Positions 32,284 through 41,762 of a stretch of 43,089 nt of DNA are shown one piece after another (position 1 is the first letter of the stretch; every line of letters begins with the position of its first letter). The position numbers and the translations under genes are program-made. The notes under the pieces were generated by a model. That model ran no database searches, was not told the DNA's origin, and saw only the letters and a list, made by a program, of their open reading frames with translations. This stretch comes from Acidimicrobiia bacterium. GTDB taxonomy: Bacteria > Actinomycetota > Acidimicrobiia > Acidimicrobiales > Poriferisodalaceae. The DNA is taken from assembly GCA_022824805.1 (NCBI GenBank), contig JAJDZE010000193.1, forward strand, positions 1 through 43,089, in the 5' to 3' direction.

Positions 32284-33555
<1,272 letters not shown>

Positions 33556-33611
33556 CCGGAGATCCGCACTCTGCTCTGGGGCAGACGAGGACGTTCCGGT
33601 GAGGGAGCGAC

Positions 33612-33818
33612 ATGCACGTCGTACGAATCCACCCGAACGCAGATGAAGGCGTCTCGTTCTGGGCCGAGGATGACCGTGGGTTCAACGGAGGCGCGGACGA
33701 CCTCGCCGATCTCTTGGCGATGATTGCCGAGTACGCGGATGCCGACTCTCGTATTGGCGAGTGGCGGGCGGAGTTGGTCCCCGATCAGCAACCGCCCAGC
33801 GTCGCGGCGCAGCCCTGA
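33612..33818 (+). CDS. Small protein, weakly HicB-like
   Basis: A 68-residue acidic protein preceded by a GAGGGAG ribosome-binding site. The pattern HVVRIHPNADEGVSFWAEDDRGFNGGADDLADLLAMIAEYA recalls the beta-beta-alpha core of HicB/DUF1902-type antitoxins, but the match is weak and no DNA-binding domain is present. It lies 56 bases after citrate synthase and 30 bases before another tiny gene. A partner in a toxin-antitoxin-like pair is possible; function unassigned. Confidence 0.5.
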   Translation: MHVVRIHPNADEGVSFWAEDDRGFNGGADDLADLLAMIAEYADADSRIGEWRAELVPDQQPPSVAAQP

Positions 33819-33835
33819 CCATCGAGCCGAGTCAG

Positions 33836-33841
33836 TAAGGT
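33836..33841 (+). promoter_or_regulatory. Candidate -10 of the 71-residue protein gene
   Basis: TAAGGT, 7 bases before the ATG at 33849, with CCTGAC (33814-33819) as a possible -35 at 16-base spacing. Predicted leaderless. Confidence 0.4.
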
Positions 33842-33848
33842 ACGCGCT

Positions 33849-34064
33849 ATGGCGAATCGCATCAGCACCCGGACCGGATTCCTGTTCGCCACGCCGAGCG
33901 CGCTGCACGGCGCCGCTCGTATCTTCGATGCATGGGGCACCTACGACGACTACAACTTGGGCGACCCGCTTGAGCACGACGTCGCGCTCGGATTCGCGCA
34001 GGACTGGCTCTCTCTGGAGGATGACCTCCGCGCTGCCTTCTCCGGCCACCGCGTCGTCGGTTAG
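33849..34064 (+). CDS. Small conserved-looking protein of unknown function
   Basis: A 71-residue protein (GFLFATPSALHGAARIFDAWGTYDDYN, then ALGFAQDWLSLEDDLRAAF). I associate this pattern with short unannotated bacterial proteins found in accessory regions, but know no function. It has no signal or membrane segment and looks helical. It lies between a HicB-like small gene and the methyltransferase/nuclease operon, 195 bases upstream of the latter. Confidence 0.5.
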   Translation: MANRISTRTGFLFATPSALHGAARIFDAWGTYDDYNLGDPLEHDVALGFAQDWLSLEDDLRAAFSGHRVVG

Positions 34065-34259
34065 AGCACCGACAGGTACAACCCTCGGCATCGGCCGCAG
34101 TGCGGTCGATCAAGTAGGCCGACCCTGTCTTGTCGCACCCCTTCGGCAAGCTCTGGGTCATGTTCTGGCATCAAGCGGCATCCCCGGCCCACACTTCGAG
34201 GCGTCTTAGGCTTGAACGGGTGCTTGGGCCCTGCATGAGCGGCACGGAGGTGTCGCGCA

Positions 34260-36020
34260 ATGGCTGATTCGACCCGGCGGGTTGTGGCACCCGGCGACGC
34301 TGAGATGCGGTTCCCGATGACCACGGATATCCGAGGCAGCAAGGGAAGCGTGTTCTACAGGGCGCACTCGTATCACACGAAGGTGCCGGTCGAGAGCATC
34401 GTGCAGCTCATCGAGCACTACACGGATGTGGGCGATGTGGTGGTCGATCCGTTCTGCGGATCCGGCCAAACCGGTGTGGCCGCGGTGCTCACTGGTCGGC
34501 ACGCCGTCATCTCGGACTTGTCTCCTGCCGCAGTGCACATCGCACGCGGCTATACAGCGCGCGTTGACCCCATCCGCTTCGGTCAGGCCGCTTCGAGGTT
34601 GCTCGACCGGTTCGCACCGCTAGAGCAAGAGCTGTACGGGGTGCCCGGGGGACGGGTCGAGTACACGGTCTGGTCTGACGTGTACCGCTGCTCGACGTGC
34701 GGGAGAGAGATCCTGTTCTGGGAGGCGGCCGTCGATCACCGGGCGGGGCAGGTGATGCGCTCGCTCTCATGCGCCGCGGGCCACGGACCTTTCGCAAAGA
34801 CCGATCTCGATTGGCTTGGCTCCCGGCCGGTGCAACGGAACATCAGCATCGACGGTCAGCGTGCCCGCGCAGTGGAACCGGTGCGTGCGGTGGGAGACGA
34901 ACTCCTCATCGATCGATCCAGCATTCCCTATTGGTTCCCGACCGAGCCGTGGGAACGCTGGCGCGAGATGTGGCGCGCTCAGCACGACGCGCAAGGGATC
35001 GTCGCGTCCGCAGACTTCTTCACGAATCGCAACCTCTATGCGCTGGCGGCATTGTGGGAGGCGATCAGACAAGTCGACGACGAGGCGATTCGGGTCGGCT
35101 TGCAGTTTGTCTTTACCGCCAGCGTCAATCGGGCGTCACGCCGGTACCAGTGGCATCCGACGCGCCCGACCAACGTCCTGTCTTCGACGATGTACCTCGC
35201 GTCGCTGAACTACGAGTTCAACGTGTTCAGCCTCTTCCGCCGCAAGCTCTCCACGATCACTCAGATGTATGAGCGGACGTGGCAGGCACCTGGTTCATGC
35301 GAGGTGCACCAGGGCTCTGCCGAGAGCCTCGACTGGCTCGGCGGCGCTGCTGCGGATTATGTCTTCACCGATCCTCCGTTCGGCTCCAACATCTTCTATG
35401 GCGATTCGTCGTACCTGTGGGAGGCGTGGCTCGGCGAACGGACCGATGTTGCGGCTGAGACCGTGATCAACAAGCGGTTGACTGACGAGCTCGGTCGCAC
35501 AACTTTGGATGGCTACGCGAAGGCGATGAGCCGTGCGATGGAAGAGATCGGCCGCGTGCTCCGGCCGGGTGCGTGGGCTTCACTGCAGTTTCACAACTCC
35601 GATGACGCAGTGTGGTCCGCGATCCAGAACGCTGTCGATGCTGCAGGGCTGAGGGTCGAAGCCGCAGTCGTCATGGACAAGGGCCAGGCATCATTCAAGG
35701 GCCTCCGCCACCACCAACGAGGCGAGAAGGTAGCCAGTTTCGATCTCGTGCTGCACCTCGCTGCGGGGCCGCGACACGAGACTTGCCCTGAGCGTTACGA
35801 GATCGCACGAGCGGACATTGAGCAAATGCTCGAGTCATATGTCGCGCTCGAACCGCCATCGCGCTGCACCACGCCGTGGCTGCATTCCCAAGTGATGCGT
35901 CATCTCATTGCAATTGGTGCGTCACCGGCGGGATGGAGCTTCGCGGCGGTGGAAGCACTGTGCGAAGAGACTTTTGAGAGGAAGGGCAACTCATGGCGCC
36001 TGCGGGCAAGGGCGGTGTAG
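34260..36020 (+). CDS. Zinc-ribbon DNA methyltransferase 1 (amino-MTase)
   Basis: A 586-residue DNA adenine-N6 or cytosine-N4 methyltransferase. SAM motif DPFCGSGQTG (63-72, FxGxG type) comes first and catalytic DPPF (371-374) far later, the alpha-class order, with about 300 residues between as the likely target-recognition region. That region begins with a zinc-binding candidate, C144-x2-C147 ... C171-x3-H175. The N-terminal YHTKVP motif precedes the SAM site, as in Zn-ribbon methylases related to COG1743. A GGAGGTG ribosome-binding site precedes the ATG. It overlaps a paralogous methyltransferase by 28 bases. DNA here is about 60% GC, lower than its surroundings. Target sequence unknown. 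Confidence 0.88.
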   Translation: MADSTRRVVAPGDAEMRFPMTTDIRGSKGSVFYRAHSYHTKVPVESIVQLIEHYTDVGDVVVDPFCGSGQTGVAAVLTGRHAVISDLSPAAVHIARGYTARVDPIRFGQAASRLLDRFAPLEQELYGVPGGRVEYTVWSDVYRCSTCGREILFWEAAVDHRAGQVMRSLSCAAGHGPFAKTDLDWLGSRPVQRNISIDGQRARAVEPVRAVGDELLIDRSSIPYWFPTEPWERWREMWRAQHDAQGIVASADFFTNRNLYALAALWEAIRQVDDEAIRVGLQFVFTASVNRASRRYQWHPTRPTNVLSSTMYLASLNYEFNVFSLFRRKLSTITQMYERTWQAPGSCEVHQGSAESLDWLGGAAADYVFTDPPFGSNIFYGDSSYLWEAWLGERTDVAAETVINKRLTDELGRTTLDGYAKAMSRAMEEIGRVLRPGAWASLQFHNSDDAVWSAIQNAVDAAGLRVEAAVVMDKGQASFKGLRHHQRGEKVASFDLVLHLAAGPRHETCPERYEIARADIEQMLESYVALEPPSRCTTPWLHSQVMRHLIAIGASPAGWSFAAVEALCEETFERKGNSWRLRARAV

Positions 36021-37759
36021 CCCGACGGCCGTTGGCCGCTCGTCTTCCGCTGCCGAACTACGTTGCCGGCTCCAAGGGCGGTCCCTGGTACACGGCGCAT
36101 ACCTACCCCACCAAGATCCCTCCGGAAACCATCACTCCGTTCATCGAGGCGTCGACGCTGCCCGATGGCGTAGTCGCAGACCCGTTCTGCGGGTCGGGTA
36201 TGACAGGTGTTGCGGCGGCGCTCGTCGGCCGTCGAGCGCTGCTGTCTGACCTCTCGCCCGGCGCAGTGCACCTCGCCCGCAACCACACGCGTCGTGTGTC
36301 CGCAGCGTCGCTCCATGAGGCAGTCGCGCAACTCGACGGTGCGTGGATGCTTGACGTTGAGCGCGACCTGTACTGGTGCTCAGTAGACACTGTGGACGGC
36401 GTCATCTGCGGGCTGATGCGACATATGGTGTGGTCCGAGGCGTACGAGTGCGCATCGTGCATGTCGACGGTTGTGCTGTGGGACGTAGCCAAGCCCGACC
36501 GGCCTCTCCGACGTCAGGTCGAATGCGATGTCTGCGGACAGTCGTTTGACCGGACTCGCAGCAGGCCGGTCGATTCAGTGCCCCGCTGGCTGACGCTCGC
36601 ACCTGAGTCGGGGGGAAAACTGATCCAAGGCGATCCGACTGCCGATGCAACCCGGCGGATCGACGCGATCGGGCGCCGACGGCTCAAGCACCGGGTGCCG
36701 AGGATGCGAATCGACTCATCCCGCGAGATGTATATCCGATCCGCTCTTCATCTACGAGGCGTACGCACGGTTGCCGACATGTTCGCTCATCGCCCCAAAG
36801 TCGCGCTGTCTCGCCTGTGGCACGAGATCGGTTTCATCACGGACGCAGCTGTGAGAGAGGCCCTGCAATTCGCGTTCACCAACACGGCCTGGCATTCCAG
36901 CCGCATGCGGCGCTACAACGCGAAGGGCGGCCAGCGCCCGCTGACGGGCACCCTGTTCATCCCGCAGCTCGTCTCGGAACCCAACGTCTTCGAGGTATTC
37001 CGCCACCAGGTCCGCCAAGTCTGTCGGTTGTACGAAGCGCTCCCCGACAGTGATGTCGAAGTAGCTCAGTCTTCTGCGACGGACCTGCGTTGGATAGCAG
37101 ACCGTTCCGTGGACTACGTGTTCACGGATCCGCCGTTTGGCAACAACATCCACTACGCCGACTGCAACATCGTCTGGGAATCGTGGCTGGGCAACCCGAC
37201 CGATCACGACCAAGAGATCGTGGTGAACAAGTCACGCAGTGCCGCGGCCGGGGGCAAGACGCTCGCCGACTACCAGCAGCTGCTCACGGATTCGTTCCGA
37301 GAAGCGAAGCGGGTCGTGGTCGACGGTGGGCGCATCTCGGTGGTCTTTCACAATTCTGACGACGCGGTGTGGACTGCGCTTCTCGACGCCGTTGAGGACG
37401 CCGGTTTGCACCAGGCGGAGGTGTCGATACTCGACAAGGGCCAACGAAGCCAGAAGGGCTACAAGGCCAGACGGGGCGAGCTCGTGCCGTTCTACGACCT
37501 GGTCATGACCTTTGATACGGCAAAGCGAAGCGCAGCACGACTGAACGGTGCCGGCGAGATTGCGCTCGACGCCGTCATGGCGCATCTCGAAAGCCTCGAT
37601 GACAAGCCTTCCCAAGCACGTCACCTCGACTACCTGTACTCCGTCGCCGTGGGTGCAGTGATCGGTGGCGGCGTACGGCCGATCGGGCTTTCGTTGCGCG
37701 CGTTCGAGCATCTGTGCAATGAACGCTTCGAACGTATCGGAAACTCGTTCCACCTATAG
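35993..37759 (+). CDS. Zinc-ribbon DNA methyltransferase 2 (amino-MTase)
   Basis: A 588-residue paralogue of the preceding enzyme with the same architecture: YPTKIPPE (39-46), DPFCGSGMTG (63-72), a complete four-Cys ribbon (C153-x2-C156, C178-x2-C181) and DPPF (379-382). Flanks are conserved (YVFTDPPFG; VFHNSDDAVW; LDKGQ), while the 100-330 region diverges, as expected if the two enzymes recognise different strands or half-sites. A GGAAGGG ribosome-binding site lies inside the first methyltransferase gene. The nuclease gene follows 23 bases after its stop. Two methylases beside one nuclease is typical for asymmetric recognition sequences. Confidence 0.88.
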   Translation: MAPAGKGGVARRPLAARLPLPNYVAGSKGGPWYTAHTYPTKIPPETITPFIEASTLPDGVVADPFCGSGMTGVAAALVGRRALLSDLSPGAVHLARNHTRRVSAASLHEAVAQLDGAWMLDVERDLYWCSVDTVDGVICGLMRHMVWSEAYECASCMSTVVLWDVAKPDRPLRRQVECDVCGQSFDRTRSRPVDSVPRWLTLAPESGGKLIQGDPTADATRRIDAIGRRRLKHRVPRMRIDSSREMYIRSALHLRGVRTVADMFAHRPKVALSRLWHEIGFITDAAVREALQFAFTNTAWHSSRMRRYNAKGGQRPLTGTLFIPQLVSEPNVFEVFRHQVRQVCRLYEALPDSDVEVAQSSATDLRWIADRSVDYVFTDPPFGNNIHYADCNIVWESWLGNPTDHDQEIVVNKSRSAAAGGKTLADYQQLLTDSFREAKRVVVDGGRISVVFHNSDDAVWTALLDAVEDAGLHQAEVSILDKGQRSQKGYKARRGELVPFYDLVMTFDTAKRSAARLNGAGEIALDAVMAHLESLDDKPSQARHLDYLYSVAVGAVIGGGVRPIGLSLRAFEHLCNERFERIGNSFHL

Positions 37760-37782
37760 GTGCCGAGAAGAGAGGCGAAGCG

Positions 37783-38775
37783 ATGGCCAATCGGTTGTCC
37801 AAGGCAGAGCTGCAGGAACGATTCGTCGCGGCCATTGGTTCGGGCGCGGTGGCGGCCGACACCGACGATGCAGGAGAACTGGTGATCGAACTCCGTTCTC
37901 CGTTACCCCGTCGTGTCCGCGTCTACATCTACAACGCAACCGACGCGCAAGGTCCCGATCGCACCTCGGAGTACCGAATACAGCTCATTCTCACCGACCA
38001 AGGCAGGGGCCAACGGGCCGACTTCGACGGATCCGAGGTCGATTTCGTGCTGCTGTGCGGTTACGTCCCAGAACAGGACGTCTTCGTGTTCTGGGACGCG
38101 TCCCTGCACCGGGACTTTGCATATTCGAAGAACCTGCAGGTGCGGTCTGAGAACGTCATCGGTGCCGCAGCGGCTGGTGTCACAGTGCGTCAGGAGCGCC
38201 TCTTGGACTCTGGTCGTGAAACCGTCCTCTGCGCACCGAGCCGATTCGTCTCGGAAGCGATGGCCGAACGGTTCGCGAGCCCAATCCTCGTTCCCCAAGG
38301 GCCTGGCGCCGTGGCACCGAATGGCCAGCCCTACATGCGACCTCCGCGCAGCGGAAACGGGGAATCGACGCTGCGGGTGTTCAGCGTCGACCCAGATGCC
38401 ATCGACCGGGGAACGAATGCCCACAAGGACATCCAAGACCAGCTCGCCAACGCGCTCTCGGCTCGGGGATGGGAACCGCTCTCTCCGAGCAGCACCGATC
38501 CACTCTTCGACATCGGCTGGATCGTGATCGACACGGCGTGGATCGCCGAGGTCAAGAGCCTCACCGAATCCAACGAGGACCGACAGCTTCGACTGGGCCT
38601 CGGACAGGTACTCAGCTACGCGTACCTGATCGATTGGGGTGTGGCGGCATATCGGCCCGTCTTGGCAGTTGAGCGCGAACCGTCATCTTCGTACTGGCCT
38701 GATCTCTGTGCGTCACACGGCGTCAAGCTGTCCTGGCCCGAGACCTTCGAAACGATGCTCGACGCCTGCACCTGA
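37783..38775 (+). CDS. PD-(D/E)XK restriction endonuclease candidate
   Basis: A 330-residue protein. The C-terminal domain (about 205-300) shows a PD-(D/E)XK pattern: DPLFDIGW (Asp243), AEVKSL (Glu256, Lys258) and GLGQVLSYAYLI (Gln275), in a helix-strand order like other restriction nucleases. The N-terminal 160 residues (VRVYIYNATDAQ; SEYRIQLIL; DFVLLCGYVPEQDVFVFWD; SKNLQVRSENV) look like a beta-rich DNA-recognition domain of the kind placed before nuclease domains; I cannot name it securely. GAGAGG precedes the ATG. Operon position after two DNA methyltransferases makes it the likely cleaving subunit of a restriction-modification system. Cutting of modified DNA is an alternative. Confidence 0.8.
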   Translation: MANRLSKAELQERFVAAIGSGAVAADTDDAGELVIELRSPLPRRVRVYIYNATDAQGPDRTSEYRIQLILTDQGRGQRADFDGSEVDFVLLCGYVPEQDVFVFWDASLHRDFAYSKNLQVRSENVIGAAAAGVTVRQERLLDSGRETVLCAPSRFVSEAMAERFASPILVPQGPGAVAPNGQPYMRPPRSGNGESTLRVFSVDPDAIDRGTNAHKDIQDQLANALSARGWEPLSPSSTDPLFDIGWIVIDTAWIAEVKSLTESNEDRQLRLGLGQVLSYAYLIDWGVAAYRPVLAVEREPSSSYWPDLCASHGVKLSWPETFETMLDACT

Positions 38776-38823
38776 CAGGCAGCCGATAGCGCCGCATGCA
38801 TCCTTGCGGTGACAGGGGTCCCT

Positions 38824-38859
38824 GATTTGGATCCGGGTGACTGGGCTTCCCCCCAAATC
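38824..38859. repeat. Imperfect inverted repeat at insertion-sequence end
   Basis: GATTTGG (38824-38830) is complementary to CCAAATC (38853-38859), extended by imperfect CCT/AGG flanks. It lies just outside the transposase remnant, where an IS terminal inverted repeat would be expected. Confidence 0.4.
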
Positions 38860-38872
38860 TAGGAGGGTTTGG

Positions 38873-38962
38873 TCAGTCGTTGTTGGCTTGTTCGTAGTCG
38901 GTCGGGCTGGTCATGTCGAGGGTGCTGTGGAGCCGTCGGGTGTTGTACCAGTCGGCAAACCC
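38873..38962 (-). pseudogene. IS3-family transposase (OrfB) C-terminal remnant
   Basis: The last 30 or so codons of the minus-strand frame read FADWYNTRRLHSTLDMTSPTDYE, the typical IS3-family integrase C-terminus (WYN-x2-RLHS...SP). Upstream of about 38962 the frame loses all transposase character, so the rest has been deleted or replaced by the 23-bp repeat array. Non-functional. It marks the right edge of the restriction-modification segment. Confidence 0.8.
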
Positions 38963-38996
38963 GACTGGACACTCCTCGCCACCATCACACCCCGCT

Positions 38997-39185
38997 GATT
39001 TCCGAAGTGCCGCCAAATCGACATCAAACGATGCGCGATAGTGACATCTGTTGCTGCGCCAAACCGACATCACGTGGTGCGCGAAAACGGCATCCAGACC
39101 TGCGTCGAACCGGCATGAGCGCTTCCGCAATCGTCGCAGCGTGATGCCTGCAAATGTTCACACGCATCACCTGCAAACATTCACA
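38997..39185. repeat. Array of 23-bp periodic repeats
   Basis: GACATC or a close variant begins at 39020, 39043, 39066, 39089 and 39112, exactly 23 bases apart, with a weaker GATTTC at 38997. Each of the middle units continues as six variable bases, then TGCG and an A-rich end (GCGAAAAC, GCCAAACC, GTCGAACC). Two further related repeats, CCTGCAAATGTTCACA (39147) and CCTGCAAACATTCACA (39170), are also 23 bases apart. No spacers of CRISPR type are present. It resembles multiple transposase-binding sites at the end of an IS21-like or Tn7-like element; iterons or an operator array for the ATPase gene are alternatives. Confidence 0.7.
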
Positions 39186-39213
39186 TAGGTGGAGTCTGCA
39201 AGGCTGAGTTCGC

Positions 39214-39219
39214 TACAGT
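39214..39219 (+). promoter_or_regulatory. Candidate -10 of the ATPase gene
   Basis: TACAGT, 9 bases before the ATG at 39229. The repeat array ends about 30 bases upstream, where a regulator could act. Confidence 0.35.
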
Positions 39220-39228
39220 CAGGCTGCA

Positions 39229-40542
39229 ATGGACGCGACGGCAGACACAGTTGCCTACCTGCCGCGCGTCGTCGATGTACTGCTGGCCGAACGGCTGAGG
39301 ATCATGCCGATGGCCGTCATTGACGGACCGCGCGCGTGCGGCAAAACCACGACAGCCAGCCGGCTGGCACAGCGCATCCTGCCGCTCGATCGCGACAGCG
39401 CCGCCCGGGAGCACGCCGCCCACGGCACGCTGCCGTTAGACGATGGGCCGTTTCCGACACTGCTCGATGAGTGGCAGCTCGCCGAGCCGTTGTGGAACCA
39501 GCTAAGGCGCATCAGCGACCGCCTCGGTCGGCCAGGACTCTTCCTTCTGACGGGGTCGGCCCAGCCAGCCGATGACATCACCCGTCATTCCGGCGCCGGC
39601 CGGGTCGCTCGGCTGCGGATGCGCACGCTGTCGCTGTTCGAGTCGGGTGACTCGCCCGGCTTGGTCAGCCTCGCAGGCCTGTTCGACGGCGAGGCATGCG
39701 CCGCATGGCCCAGCGACTCGCCAGCCACGGCAGACCAGACCTACGACGGTGATGCTGCAGCACAACTGCGCTCCGTCGTCGATGTGCTCTGTCGTGGCGG
39801 TTGGCCCGCATGTGTAGCGATGAGTCCGTCCGATGCCCAGCTGTATCTGACGGACTACCTGGAAGAAATCTGCCGGGTAGACATCAGGCAGCTTGCCGGC
39901 CGCAGACACGACCCCACCAACGTGCGCCGCACGATTGCCTCGCTGGCACGTCACAGCGGCTCAGCGCCGACAATGAAGACGCTTGCTGCAGACATCGCGG
40001 GGCGGCAGCCGCTCGCTCACGCAACGCTGCAGAGCTACCTGTCCACGCTCGAAGCCATCCACATCAGCGAAGACCAGCCGCACTGGTCACCCCATCTGGC
40101 GTCGCGCGCCCGCCTGCGCCAGGCAGCGAAACGGCATCTGGCTGACCCGGCGCTCGCCGTCAACGCATTGAGCGCGAACGCGCAACGACTCCTCGACGAC
40201 CGTGCGCTGCTCGGCCACCTGTTCGAATCGTTGGCAGTCCGCGACCTGCGCATCTACGCCCATGCGCTCGGTGGCAGCGTGTACCACTACTCCGACAGCA
40301 ACGAACTCGAAGCAGACGCAATCATCGAACTGCGCGACGGTCGCTGGATCGCTGTCGAGGTCAAGCTCGGCGAGCCAAGTTCCATCGACGAAGCCGCTAC
40401 ATCGCTGAACAGGCTCTGTGACCACATAGACACCGACCGGATGGGTCCGCCCGCCAAGTTGCTCGTCATCACGGCCACCGGGTACGCCTATGAGCGCAGC
40501 GACGGCGTGGCGGTCGCGCCCCTCACGCTCCTCGGCCCGTGA
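39229..40542 (+). CDS. AAA-type ATPase with DUF4143-like C-terminus
   Basis: A 437-residue ATPase of the AAA_14/DUF4143 type. Walker A is GPRACGKTT (33-41), Walker B-like LLDEWQ follows near residue 79, and the sensor segment is LFLLTGSAQP. The C-terminal part (HLFESLAVRDLRIYAHALGGSVYHYSD, then ELEADAIIE and WIAVEVKLG) has the E...EVK pattern of a PD-(D/E)XK-like fold. Proteins of this group are widespread singletons of unclear role, often linked with mobile or defence DNA. It lies beside IS debris and the repeat array. Intact length suggests it is functional. Confidence 0.85.
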   Translation: MDATADTVAYLPRVVDVLLAERLRIMPMAVIDGPRACGKTTTASRLAQRILPLDRDSAAREHAAHGTLPLDDGPFPTLLDEWQLAEPLWNQLRRISDRLGRPGLFLLTGSAQPADDITRHSGAGRVARLRMRTLSLFESGDSPGLVSLAGLFDGEACAAWPSDSPATADQTYDGDAAAQLRSVVDVLCRGGWPACVAMSPSDAQLYLTDYLEEICRVDIRQLAGRRHDPTNVRRTIASLARHSGSAPTMKTLAADIAGRQPLAHATLQSYLSTLEAIHISEDQPHWSPHLASRARLRQAAKRHLADPALAVNALSANAQRLLDDRALLGHLFESLAVRDLRIYAHALGGSVYHYSDSNELEADAIIELRDGRWIAVEVKLGEPSSIDEAATSLNRLCDHIDTDRMGPPAKLLVITATGYAYERSDGVAVAPLTLLGP

Positions 40543-40778
40543 CCGCACGACACACCACCCGCTCGGCCTCCGAACCCTGCCATCGCTATTGGATCGCGCC
40601 GAGTGCCTCTGCGAGCTTGACTGAGCCGTACAGGATTGCTCCTACTGGCGCGTAAACGTGCTTCGTCCAACGGCGCAACGACTCGACGGCGTTCATTGCG
40701 TTGATCCATCCGGTTGGCAAGGCCTCGCGATCTGCTGATCCTCTCGTCCCACTACCAGCAGCACGACATGGGTCGGCC

Positions 40779-41762
40779 TCATGCGATGTCCAGCAGGATC
40801 TTGCCGACGTTCGCGTTGGTGGCCATGTACTCGTGGGCCTCGGCGATGTCGTCGAGTGCGAAGCGGGAGTCGATGACCGGTCGCAGCGAGCCGTCGTCGA
40901 AACGCGGCAGCAGTTCGGCGCAGAAGCGCTGGTTGGCGTCGATCTTCTGCTCGATGGGCCGTGATCGCAGCACGGTGCCGATGAGCGCTGCCCGCTTCGG
41001 CAGCAGCGCGCCGAGCGGGAACGTTGCTGTCGGCTCGCCCATGACGCCCACTTGGATGATGCGCCCCTGTACGCGCACTGAGGCAATGTTGCGCGCCAGG
41101 TAGTCGCCGCCGATCACGTCGAGCACCACGTCGACGCCTTGGCGGCCGGTCCAGTCCTTGATCGCATCGGCGAAGTCGGTCTCGGTGTAGTCAATGACGA
41201 GTTCGGCGCCGAGATCGGTACAGGCCGCCACTTTCGACGTCGAGCAGGTGACGGCGATGCGGGCGCCGATGGCCTTGACGATCTGAATCGCGGCGGTGCC
41301 CACGCCCGAGGCGCCTGCATGCACCAGCGCCGTGCCGCCTGAGGCCAAGCCGCCCTGGGTCATGAGCGCATCGTGTGCGGTCATGAAGACCTCGGGAATG
41401 GCTGCGGCATCGCGCAGCGCTACCGAGGCGGGGATGCGCTGCAGCATGCGCTCGTGAGTGACGACCTGCTCGGCCTTCGCACCGCCCGACACGATGCCCA
41501 TGACCTCATCGCCCACCGCCCAGCCGGTGACTCGCTCGCCGAGCGCGGCGACGGTGCCGGCGAACTCCAACCCCGGGATTTCGAATTCGGGCTTGGGGCC
41601 GGGTGCGGGGTACAGGCCCATCCGCTGGAGCAGGTCGGCGCGGTTCATCGCTGAACACGCCACCTGCACCAGCACCTCTTCGGGTCCCGGCACTGGGTCT
41701 GGCACGTCCCGCACCTGGAGCACGTCGACGCCGCCGTATTCGGGAATCACCACTGCACGCAT
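40779..41762 (-). CDS. NAD(P)H:quinone oxidoreductase (zinc-independent MDR)
   Basis: A 327-residue medium-chain dehydrogenase/reductase of the quinone oxidoreductase (PIG3-like) group. Markers are the N-terminal MRAVVIPEYGGVDVL, NRADLLQRMGLYPAPG (40-55), PGLEFAGTV, and the Rossmann AGASGVGTAAIQIVKAIGA (149-167). Catalytic-zinc Cys/His residues of alcohol dehydrogenases are absent. It reduces quinones or related enones using NADPH. It is divergent from the tyrosine phosphatase gene with 41 bases between starts, so the two promoters must overlap. Confidence 0.93.
   Translation of the reverse strand: MRAVVIPEYGGVDVLQVRDVPDPVPGPEEVLVQVACSAMNRADLLQRMGLYPAPGPKPEFEIPGLEFAGTVAALGERVTGWAVGDEVMGIVSGGAKAEQVVTHERMLQRIPASVALRDAAAIPEVFMTAHDALMTQGGLASGGTALVHAGASGVGTAAIQIVKAIGARIAVTCSTSKVAACTDLGAELVIDYTETDFADAIKDWTGRQGVDVVLDVIGGDYLARNIASVRVQGRIIQVGVMGEPTATFPLGALLPKRAALIGTVLRSRPIEQKIDANQRFCAELLPRFDDGSLRPVIDSRFALDDIAEAHEYMATNANVGKILLDIA

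Follow-up and report, generated by a model that had tools for sequence, protein, structure and literature searches.

The stretch of DNA analysed here (the window, 43,089 nucleotides) covers positions 1 to 43,089 of the forward strand of contig JAJDZE010000193.1 from an Acidimicrobiia bacterium (assembly GCA_022824805.1), which is contig C68 of the host genome (3.69 Mb, 211 contigs). Three consecutive genes in the window encode two DNA methyltransferases, M1 and M2, and a candidate nuclease, R:

34260..36020, + strand: M1, 586 residues, a DNA amino-methyltransferase of alpha order (motif I, recognition insert with zinc site, motif IV), similar to BrxXI/PglXI; the insert spans residues ~130-310.
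35993..37759, + strand: M2, 588 residues, a paralogous methyltransferase of the sister clade, with a Cys4 zinc site (C153/C156/C178/C181).
37783..38775, + strand: R, 330 residues, an MTaX1 domain (Pfam residues 44-155; well modelled over ~1-165) followed by a PD-(D/E)XK-like nuclease domain (~196-330).

An earlier interpretation made from the letters alone (the sequence-only reading) had described two paralogous methyltransferases of ~587 residues with overlapping genes and a common motif layout, followed by a nuclease candidate, and this anatomy is upheld. The M1 and M2 genes overlap by 28 bases, and a gap of 23 bases separates M2 from R. The DPFCGSG motif lies at residue 63 of both methyltransferases and DPPF at residue 371 of M1 and 379 of M2. 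Between these motifs are zinc-type ligands, namely C144, C147, C171 and perhaps H175 in M1, and the Cys4 site in M2. The candidate catalytic residues D243, E256, K258 and Q275 are intact in R. The three genes include none for an ATPase/translocase or a specificity (S) subunit, as had been noted, and this operon of two methylases and one nuclease recurs in the same order elsewhere.

M1 and M2 are 37% identical over 605 aligned columns. Both match Pfam N6_N4_Mtase (E 2.1e-15 for M1 and 9.3e-19 for M2), with the best stretch over motif I. A Type II methyltransferase model of PADLOC, PDLC03312 (1344 positions), is matched best at 183-560 by M1 and at 773-1268 by M2. The first half of the model thus corresponds to M1 and the second half to M2, which indicates that a fused M1-M2 protein exists elsewhere; fused proteins of 1261-1351 residues are present in the loci surveyed below. 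The second-best PADLOC model is PglXI of bacteriophage exclusion (BREX) type 3 (PDLC02541; E 1.1e-95 for M1 and 2.2e-83 for M2), and M1 shares 31% identity over 521 columns, zinc insert included, with a plasmid BREX-3 methyltransferase encoded beside brxF and pglZ (L019). BrxXI has been described as having a large insert of ~250 residues between core strands 2 and 3 that bears a four-cysteine zinc finger (PMC12839542). At the level of sequence this description fits M1 and M2, so that the alpha-class order with an intervening zinc ribbon, formerly considered unusual, is that of the known BREX-3/BrxXI methyltransferase type with its zinc recognition insert. Position 174 of M1, where the fourth zinc ligand usually lies, is Gly; Cys occupies it in 30 of 35 aligned rows.

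In a tree of 115 methyltransferases, built by a quick method and with several long branches flagged, the M2 proteins form one clade (Shimodaira-Hasegawa-like approximate likelihood ratio test, SH-aLRT, 99). The paired M1 rows form another that includes one long-branched single gene of the host (SH-aLRT 99), and the BREX-3 rows and remaining single methylases fall outside both. M1 adjoins or is fused to M2 in 39 of the 41 M2 rows. M1 and M2 represent a pair of old sister clades, with a relationship to the methyltransferase of BREX type 3 (BrxXI/PglXI). Because the clades are separate, the duplication seems to predate the dispersal of the pair among Actinomycetota, Pseudomonadota, Myxococcota and others, and a pair that has long been kept and whose members are not interchangeable fits the two strands of one asymmetric site. 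With respect to the target base, the literature describes BrxXI as an N6-adenine methyltransferase (PMC12839542) and the permuted methylases of CxC/Pbe systems as cytosine-N4 enzymes (PMC10853773); motif IV is DPPF in M1 and M2, which is compatible with adenine as well as cytosine. A fold search with M1 returned solely partial class I methyltransferase matches (query-based template modelling score, TMq, up to 0.24).

A solitary third methyltransferase of the family is encoded elsewhere in the host (L031, G000:C1, 6234-8036); it is 37% identical to M1, lies on a very long branch and has no recognised nuclease adjoining. A phage origin received no support: M2 had no match at 1e-10 in 50,697 phage records and the five pattern hits of R in viral contigs yielded no confirmed case.

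Residues 44-155 of R match MTaX1 (PF20296) with E 7.7e-19 and 68.7 bits, the curated cut-off being 25 bits. The beta-rich domain of the nuclease, which the sequence-only reading had called unnamed, therefore has a Pfam name; the remainder of R matches no Pfam family. D243, E256, K258 and Q275 are identical in all 12 full-length R rows, and the D, E, K and Q are kept in 14 of 14 diverse nuclease-domain rows, five from R and nine from proteins with other N-terminal parts. Ratios of nonsynonymous to synonymous substitution rates (dN/dS) of 0.085-0.218 in nine pairs indicate purifying selection on R. The AlphaFold model of R (mean predicted local distance difference test, pLDDT, 73.4) is confident for the MTaX1 part and moderate for the nuclease part. 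A profile of the nuclease domain gave weak matches in the PDB to 2inb (E 0.0021) and 2okf (E 0.0028), the latter presumably XisH. Foldseek placed Cdn1/Card1, I-Ssp6803I and Hjc, which we take to be proteins of the PD-(D/E)XK superfamily, among its top rows (best E 1e-3, others weaker). In sequence and model, the nuclease domain of R looks like PD-(D/E)XK. A PDB sequence search with R returned a spermidine synthase (E 0.0029) as well as light chains of antibodies, and these were treated as noise.

MTaX1 is fused to HNH or AAA domains in other proteins. The R-type nuclease domain, in turn, is found C-terminal to quite different N-terminal parts in L136, L137, L139, L140, L142, L143, L145, L023 and L025. 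No such N-terminal part exceeded the Pfam cut-offs in the five proteins scanned: those of L143 and L023 matched nothing in Pfam, and those of L136 and L140 gave Mrr_N, helix-turn-helix (HTH) and BRCT rows, all below the cut-offs. Since MTaX1 and the nuclease domain each occur with other partners, R is, on its predicted domain content, a fusion of two portable domains.

Genome contigs were scanned with the M1 alignment, and the best 80 of 125 confirmed matches correspond to 77 loci (L numbers). Loci in which the M1 and M2 profiles both scored above 200 bits were termed paired (39 loci). L052, where M2 alone was called in a 962-residue frame although the M1 scan matched, and L101, with an M2-like gene only, were left out, and the other 36 of the 77 loci hold single methylases or fragments. 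The profiles for MTaX1, Pbe and other families were built partly from loci later scored with them. The order M1-M2-R occurs in 11 of the 77 loci and also in L027; with this recurrence and with R under purifying selection, the arrangement is not a product of chance.

A restriction module is present in 37 of the 39 paired loci. R lies behind M2 in 11 (five with Pbe genes called and six without), Pbe genes are found without R in 17, an AAA_5 ATPase with a protein of the 668-residue type in six, and other MTaX1 proteins in three (L058, L064 and L066). Among these three, L058 encodes an MTaX1-HNH protein, HNH also accompanying MTaX1 in L024; L064 encodes MTaX1-AAA beside a DUF2357/PDDEXK_7 gene, and L066 is grouped with L064 by layout alone. 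The remaining two, L043 and L082, show no restriction module and are cut at M2; the last bases of L043 score 20 bits for the beginning of MTaX1, at the position expected for R. MTaX1 itself is present in 36 of the 39, being called in 34, detected at 109 bits in L047 and encoded by the next gene of L050 on the overlapping locus L138. The three paired loci without it end early, L043 and L082 at M2 and L053 inside PbeA. PADLOC confirms the PbeA (E 7.5e-198) and PbeC (E 2.4e-220) of L057, the sole locus so checked.

This association bears on the view that M1 and M2 are orphan enzymes that mark DNA for gene control, R being inactive or regulatory. The target and activity of the trio are predicted ones and the data are metagenome-assembled, which speaks for such a view. 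With 37 of 39 methylase pairs accompanied by a restriction module, the other two being cut at M2, and with D, E, K and Q kept in 12 of 12 R, it is highly improbable. The sequence-only reading had also asked whether the nuclease is lost in relatives that keep the methylases. The answer is divided: in the nearest clade, 11 relatives have sequence that extends beyond M2, and 10 of them keep R (the exception is L050), whereas R is found in only 11 of 39 paired loci family-wide, though of the other 28, 26 carry a different restriction module and two break off at M2.

A survey with the R profile shares most contigs with the M1 scan, and the two are not independent. The profile matches 19 of 397 genomes of the order, ten of which (host included) have a full-length R. 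M2 lies directly upstream of R in all ten, eight of which are on the same contigs as loci of the M1 scan. The distinct R loci number 14: the 11 of the M1 scan, the window, L027 and L133, where only M2 and R were read. MTaX1 exceeds the Pfam cut-off in five of 396 genomes of the phylum, three of them (host included) with the trio, and the M2 profile at E<=1e-100 is found in five of 385 genomes of the class, with R behind M2 in all five. R was seen only in Acidimicrobiia (class and order genomes) and in one record titled just 'bacterium'.

McrBC carries its reader ahead of the AAA domain. The MTaX1 domain of L064 likewise lies ahead of an AAA domain, with the McrC-like DUF2357/PDDEXK_7 gene adjoining, and this likeness favours a modification-dependent (Type IV-like) defence module, as the sequence-only reading had offered. 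R would then cut foreign or wrong marks, and M1 and M2 would serve otherwise or compete for sites. However, L064 also has the methylase pair, and a cutter of marked DNA should be met without methylases of its own as well, whereas the ten full-length R of the order survey all lie behind M2. So do the 11 R of the M1 scan, which were found via M1 and are no independent test. Since all full-length R that were found are accompanied by M2, a modification-dependent role is judged unlikely.

Some R loci contain Pbe genes in addition. DndE, PbeC, PbeA and MTaX1 are whole beside R in L037 and L038 (MTaX1 cut by the locus end), PbeA is split in L042 and the Pbe genes are reduced in L036 and L044. L040 retains a weak DndE-like scrap of 28 residues (15 bits), and no Pbe genes were seen beside R in the window (six frames) or in L034, L035, L039, L041, L045 and L027. 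Conversely, Pbe genes are present in L050, but the 6.2 kb that follow M2 there contain no R. In a tree of MTaX1 domains, that of R groups with the Pbe type and apart from the AAA_5 type (100/99), and the R rows form two clades, one of 11 rows and one of L045 with L027. The Pbe-side MTaX1 of L037 and L038 clusters with other Pbe copies (90/81) and not with the R of its own locus. These dual loci hold two readers of separate descent side by side. Independent losses of one or the other of two effectors would produce this distribution of Pbe and R; assembly errors in metagenome-assembled genomes are possible. In L138 and L146, from the genomes of L050 and L038, the Pbe-side MTaX1 protein carries an extra N-terminal domain of ~180 residues that has no Pfam match.

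The co-occurrence in five of 11 R loci, with Pbe genes whole, split or reduced, is what would be seen if R served the Pbe/CxC ABC ATPase machinery as an accessory, in the manner of a backup or suicide nuclease, and the window were a decayed system without its main effector. The host does have another Pbe-like module, on contig C189 (L193, G000:C189, 3-11092), which comprises a CxC-like ABC ATPase and a PbeA-like gene truncated at the start of the contig. Its PbeA belongs to another clade, however, scoring 220 bits over 437 residues of the cut gene, whereas complete members of the clade linked to the methylases, from which the profile was built, reach 1056-1346 bits (576 in L049). Moreover, no Pbe gene was called in six of the 11 R loci, and M1, M2 and R are under purifying selection between the window and the likewise Pbe-less L034 and L035. 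An accessory role is therefore quite unlikely. Genes resembling dndA, dndC, dndD and dndE (names assigned by eye) follow the ABC ATPase on C189 and would constitute a phosphorothioation-type system.

The preferred interpretation, to which we assign a probability of about 0.72, is that the trio is a minimal Type II-like restriction-modification (R-M) system in which methylation is split between the two strands. Each of the two methyltransferases would read, via its zinc-bearing insert, one strand of the same asymmetric site and methylate one amino group in it, either N6 of adenine or N4 of cytosine. The MTaX1 domain of R would scan DNA, and the PD-(D/E)XK-like domain at the C-terminus would cut DNA that does not carry the expected marks. 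The data behind this model are the gene order, the domains, the catalytic residues, the purifying selection, the recurrence, the old duplication and the varied modules around a constant methylase pair. Linkage of methylases to a nuclease and a nuclease with conserved catalytic residues, which are criteria for Type II R-M systems, are both found in the trio. From the retention of the pair and the tie of R to it we infer the strand split, the asymmetric site and the cutting rule; the enzyme activities, the modified base and MTaX1 as discriminator of marks are likewise predictions.

Several points weigh against the Type II-like model. The activity, target motif and methylated base of the trio rest on inference, and the constant partner of the pair across the family is MTaX1 rather than the R nuclease (11 of 39). 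The PbeA/CxC-type module on C189 may supply a helper in trans. The model of R is moderate (mean pLDDT 73, with 57 residues below 50), the best Foldseek row has a template modelling (TM) score of 0.26 and a root-mean-square deviation of 18, and unrelated proteins are among the other rows. No solved relative of MTaX1 was recognised, the Foldseek rows for this domain not being trustworthy. M1 is without the usual fourth zinc Cys. Finally, the two R clades are united in 9% of bootstrap trees, so that a single origin of R is not supported.

Among Type II R-M systems, those that use a pair of methyltransferases for an asymmetric site, in the style of Type IIS, resemble the trio in having two amino-methyltransferases and one endonuclease gene, with no translocase or specificity subunit encoded among these genes. 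The trio differs in that its methyltransferases are of the BREX-3 nested-insert type and its endonuclease carries MTaX1, which is also found with ATP-dependent effectors. The CxC ABC ATPase/Pbe-like systems share M1/M2 homologues (mostly fused) and MTaX1, but the window is without PbeA (an HKD-SF2 helicase), PbeC and DndE, and its MTaX1 is joined to a nuclease domain of PD-(D/E)XK-like type. BREX type 3 shares the methyltransferase family and the nested zinc-site insert. In contrast, the trio has two methylases rather than one, with a shorter C-terminus, and BrxC, PglZ, BrxF and BrxHII are not beside it, where citrate synthase and AAA_14 are the neighbours (BREX families were not searched for in the remainder of the window). 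The MTaX1-HNH (L058) and MTaX1-AAA/McrC-like (L064) modules likewise combine M1-M2, fused there, with an MTaX1 nuclease module, but the nuclease and the phylum are others.

Published work that cites Krishnan 2020 places MTaX1 beside methylases in CxC ABC ATPase systems and states that it is 'also found in several R-M systems' (PMC10853773); the M1/M2 homologues are probably the 'circularly permuted cytosine-N4 methylases' of that work. In a 2026 survey, searches with the zinc insert reportedly gave no homologues outside BREX, and the same architecture is reported in BREX-related DUF499 systems (PMC12839542). Searches of the open-licence literature turned up no account of a three-gene system of this kind, of MTaX1 fused to PD-(D/E)XK or of loci with two effectors; Krishnan 2020 may already mention MTaX1-nuclease fusions. 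The proposal of a categorically new R-M architecture was given up, as BREX-3/BrxXI-type methylases, the fused M1-M2 model of PADLOC, methylase-linked Pbe systems and MTaX1 beside methylases are all known. Within the reach of these searches, the trio appears to be known in parts and new in combination.

The trio lies in a variable segment, together with two further features:

33558..40783, no strand: variable insert between gltA (citrate synthase, 32284-33555; the name gltA was assigned in the analysis) and a - strand gene at 40779-41762.
38876..39130, - strand: weak integrase-core (rve) remnant directly behind R, scoring below the Pfam cut-offs.
39229..40542, + strand: AAA_14-DUF4143 ATPase, an independent element of this hotspot, listed by PADLOC as PDC-S01.

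The citrate synthase gene is present in 10 of 11 genomes of the genus (host included). No DNA match to the trio lies behind it in the nine other genomes (stretches of 6.9-16 kb). The two sides, 33558 and 40783, are ~50 bases apart in five of these nine, the AAA_14 part alone occupies the site in three, and the far side was not found in one. Two of the nine (G685 and G718) carry M1-M2-R on another contig. The trio is an accessory, movable insert, as defence genes are. The AAA_14-DUF4143 gene was rejected as a fourth member since it occurs without the trio in the three genomes mentioned and, within the stretches examined, was not found in 14 other M2 loci (13 with R, plus the cut L043). The region 39011-40748 is 98.5-98.9% identical in three genomes of the genus, with flanks at ~80-96%, which reflects recent spread or gene conversion at the hotspot.

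Other systems were observed in the host and in the survey. DUF499, DUF1156-type methyltransferase (just under the cut-off) and helicase-NOV_C genes lie in a row at host locus L033 (G000:C5, 2090-11243) and constitute a BREX-related system; L194 (G000:C130) seems to have a cluster of the same kind. The AAA_5 version of the paired locus is carried by a Pseudarthrobacter conjugative plasmid (L018, 7144-15630) as HTH gene, M1, M2, MTaX1, AAA_5 and the 668-residue protein. A profile search of the PDB with the latter protein gave one chance-level row, and its DPK motif can be read as McrC-like. Single methyltransferases of ~650 residues, each followed by a protein of ~325 residues, occur in L090-L107 (for example L094, L096, L098, L103 and L107). 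The ~325-residue protein of L094, the sole one tested, has no Pfam or PADLOC match, and the combination is perhaps another R-M type of the family.

The trio is a very small natural form, of three genes, in which to ask what MTaX1 reads, a question left by the larger Pbe-type systems. By homology, it also places a BREX-3 style zinc recognition insert in a setting without BREX machinery. A broader and more tentative proposal is that MTaX1 may be a portable mark-checking adapter, with one code, written by a fixed methylase pair, licensing killing machines of unrelated kinds, among them a simple nuclease, one of HNH type, an McrBC-like pair and a Pbe-type helicase/ABC machine. Some Acidimicrobiia would run two of these in parallel under a single code, either being dispensable. 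The loci with two effectors at one methylation pair, together with their single-effector relatives, make effector exchange directly testable. Should the adapter proposal be true, it is the effector that would be interchangeable and the code that would stay constant, contrary to how R-M systems are usually seen.

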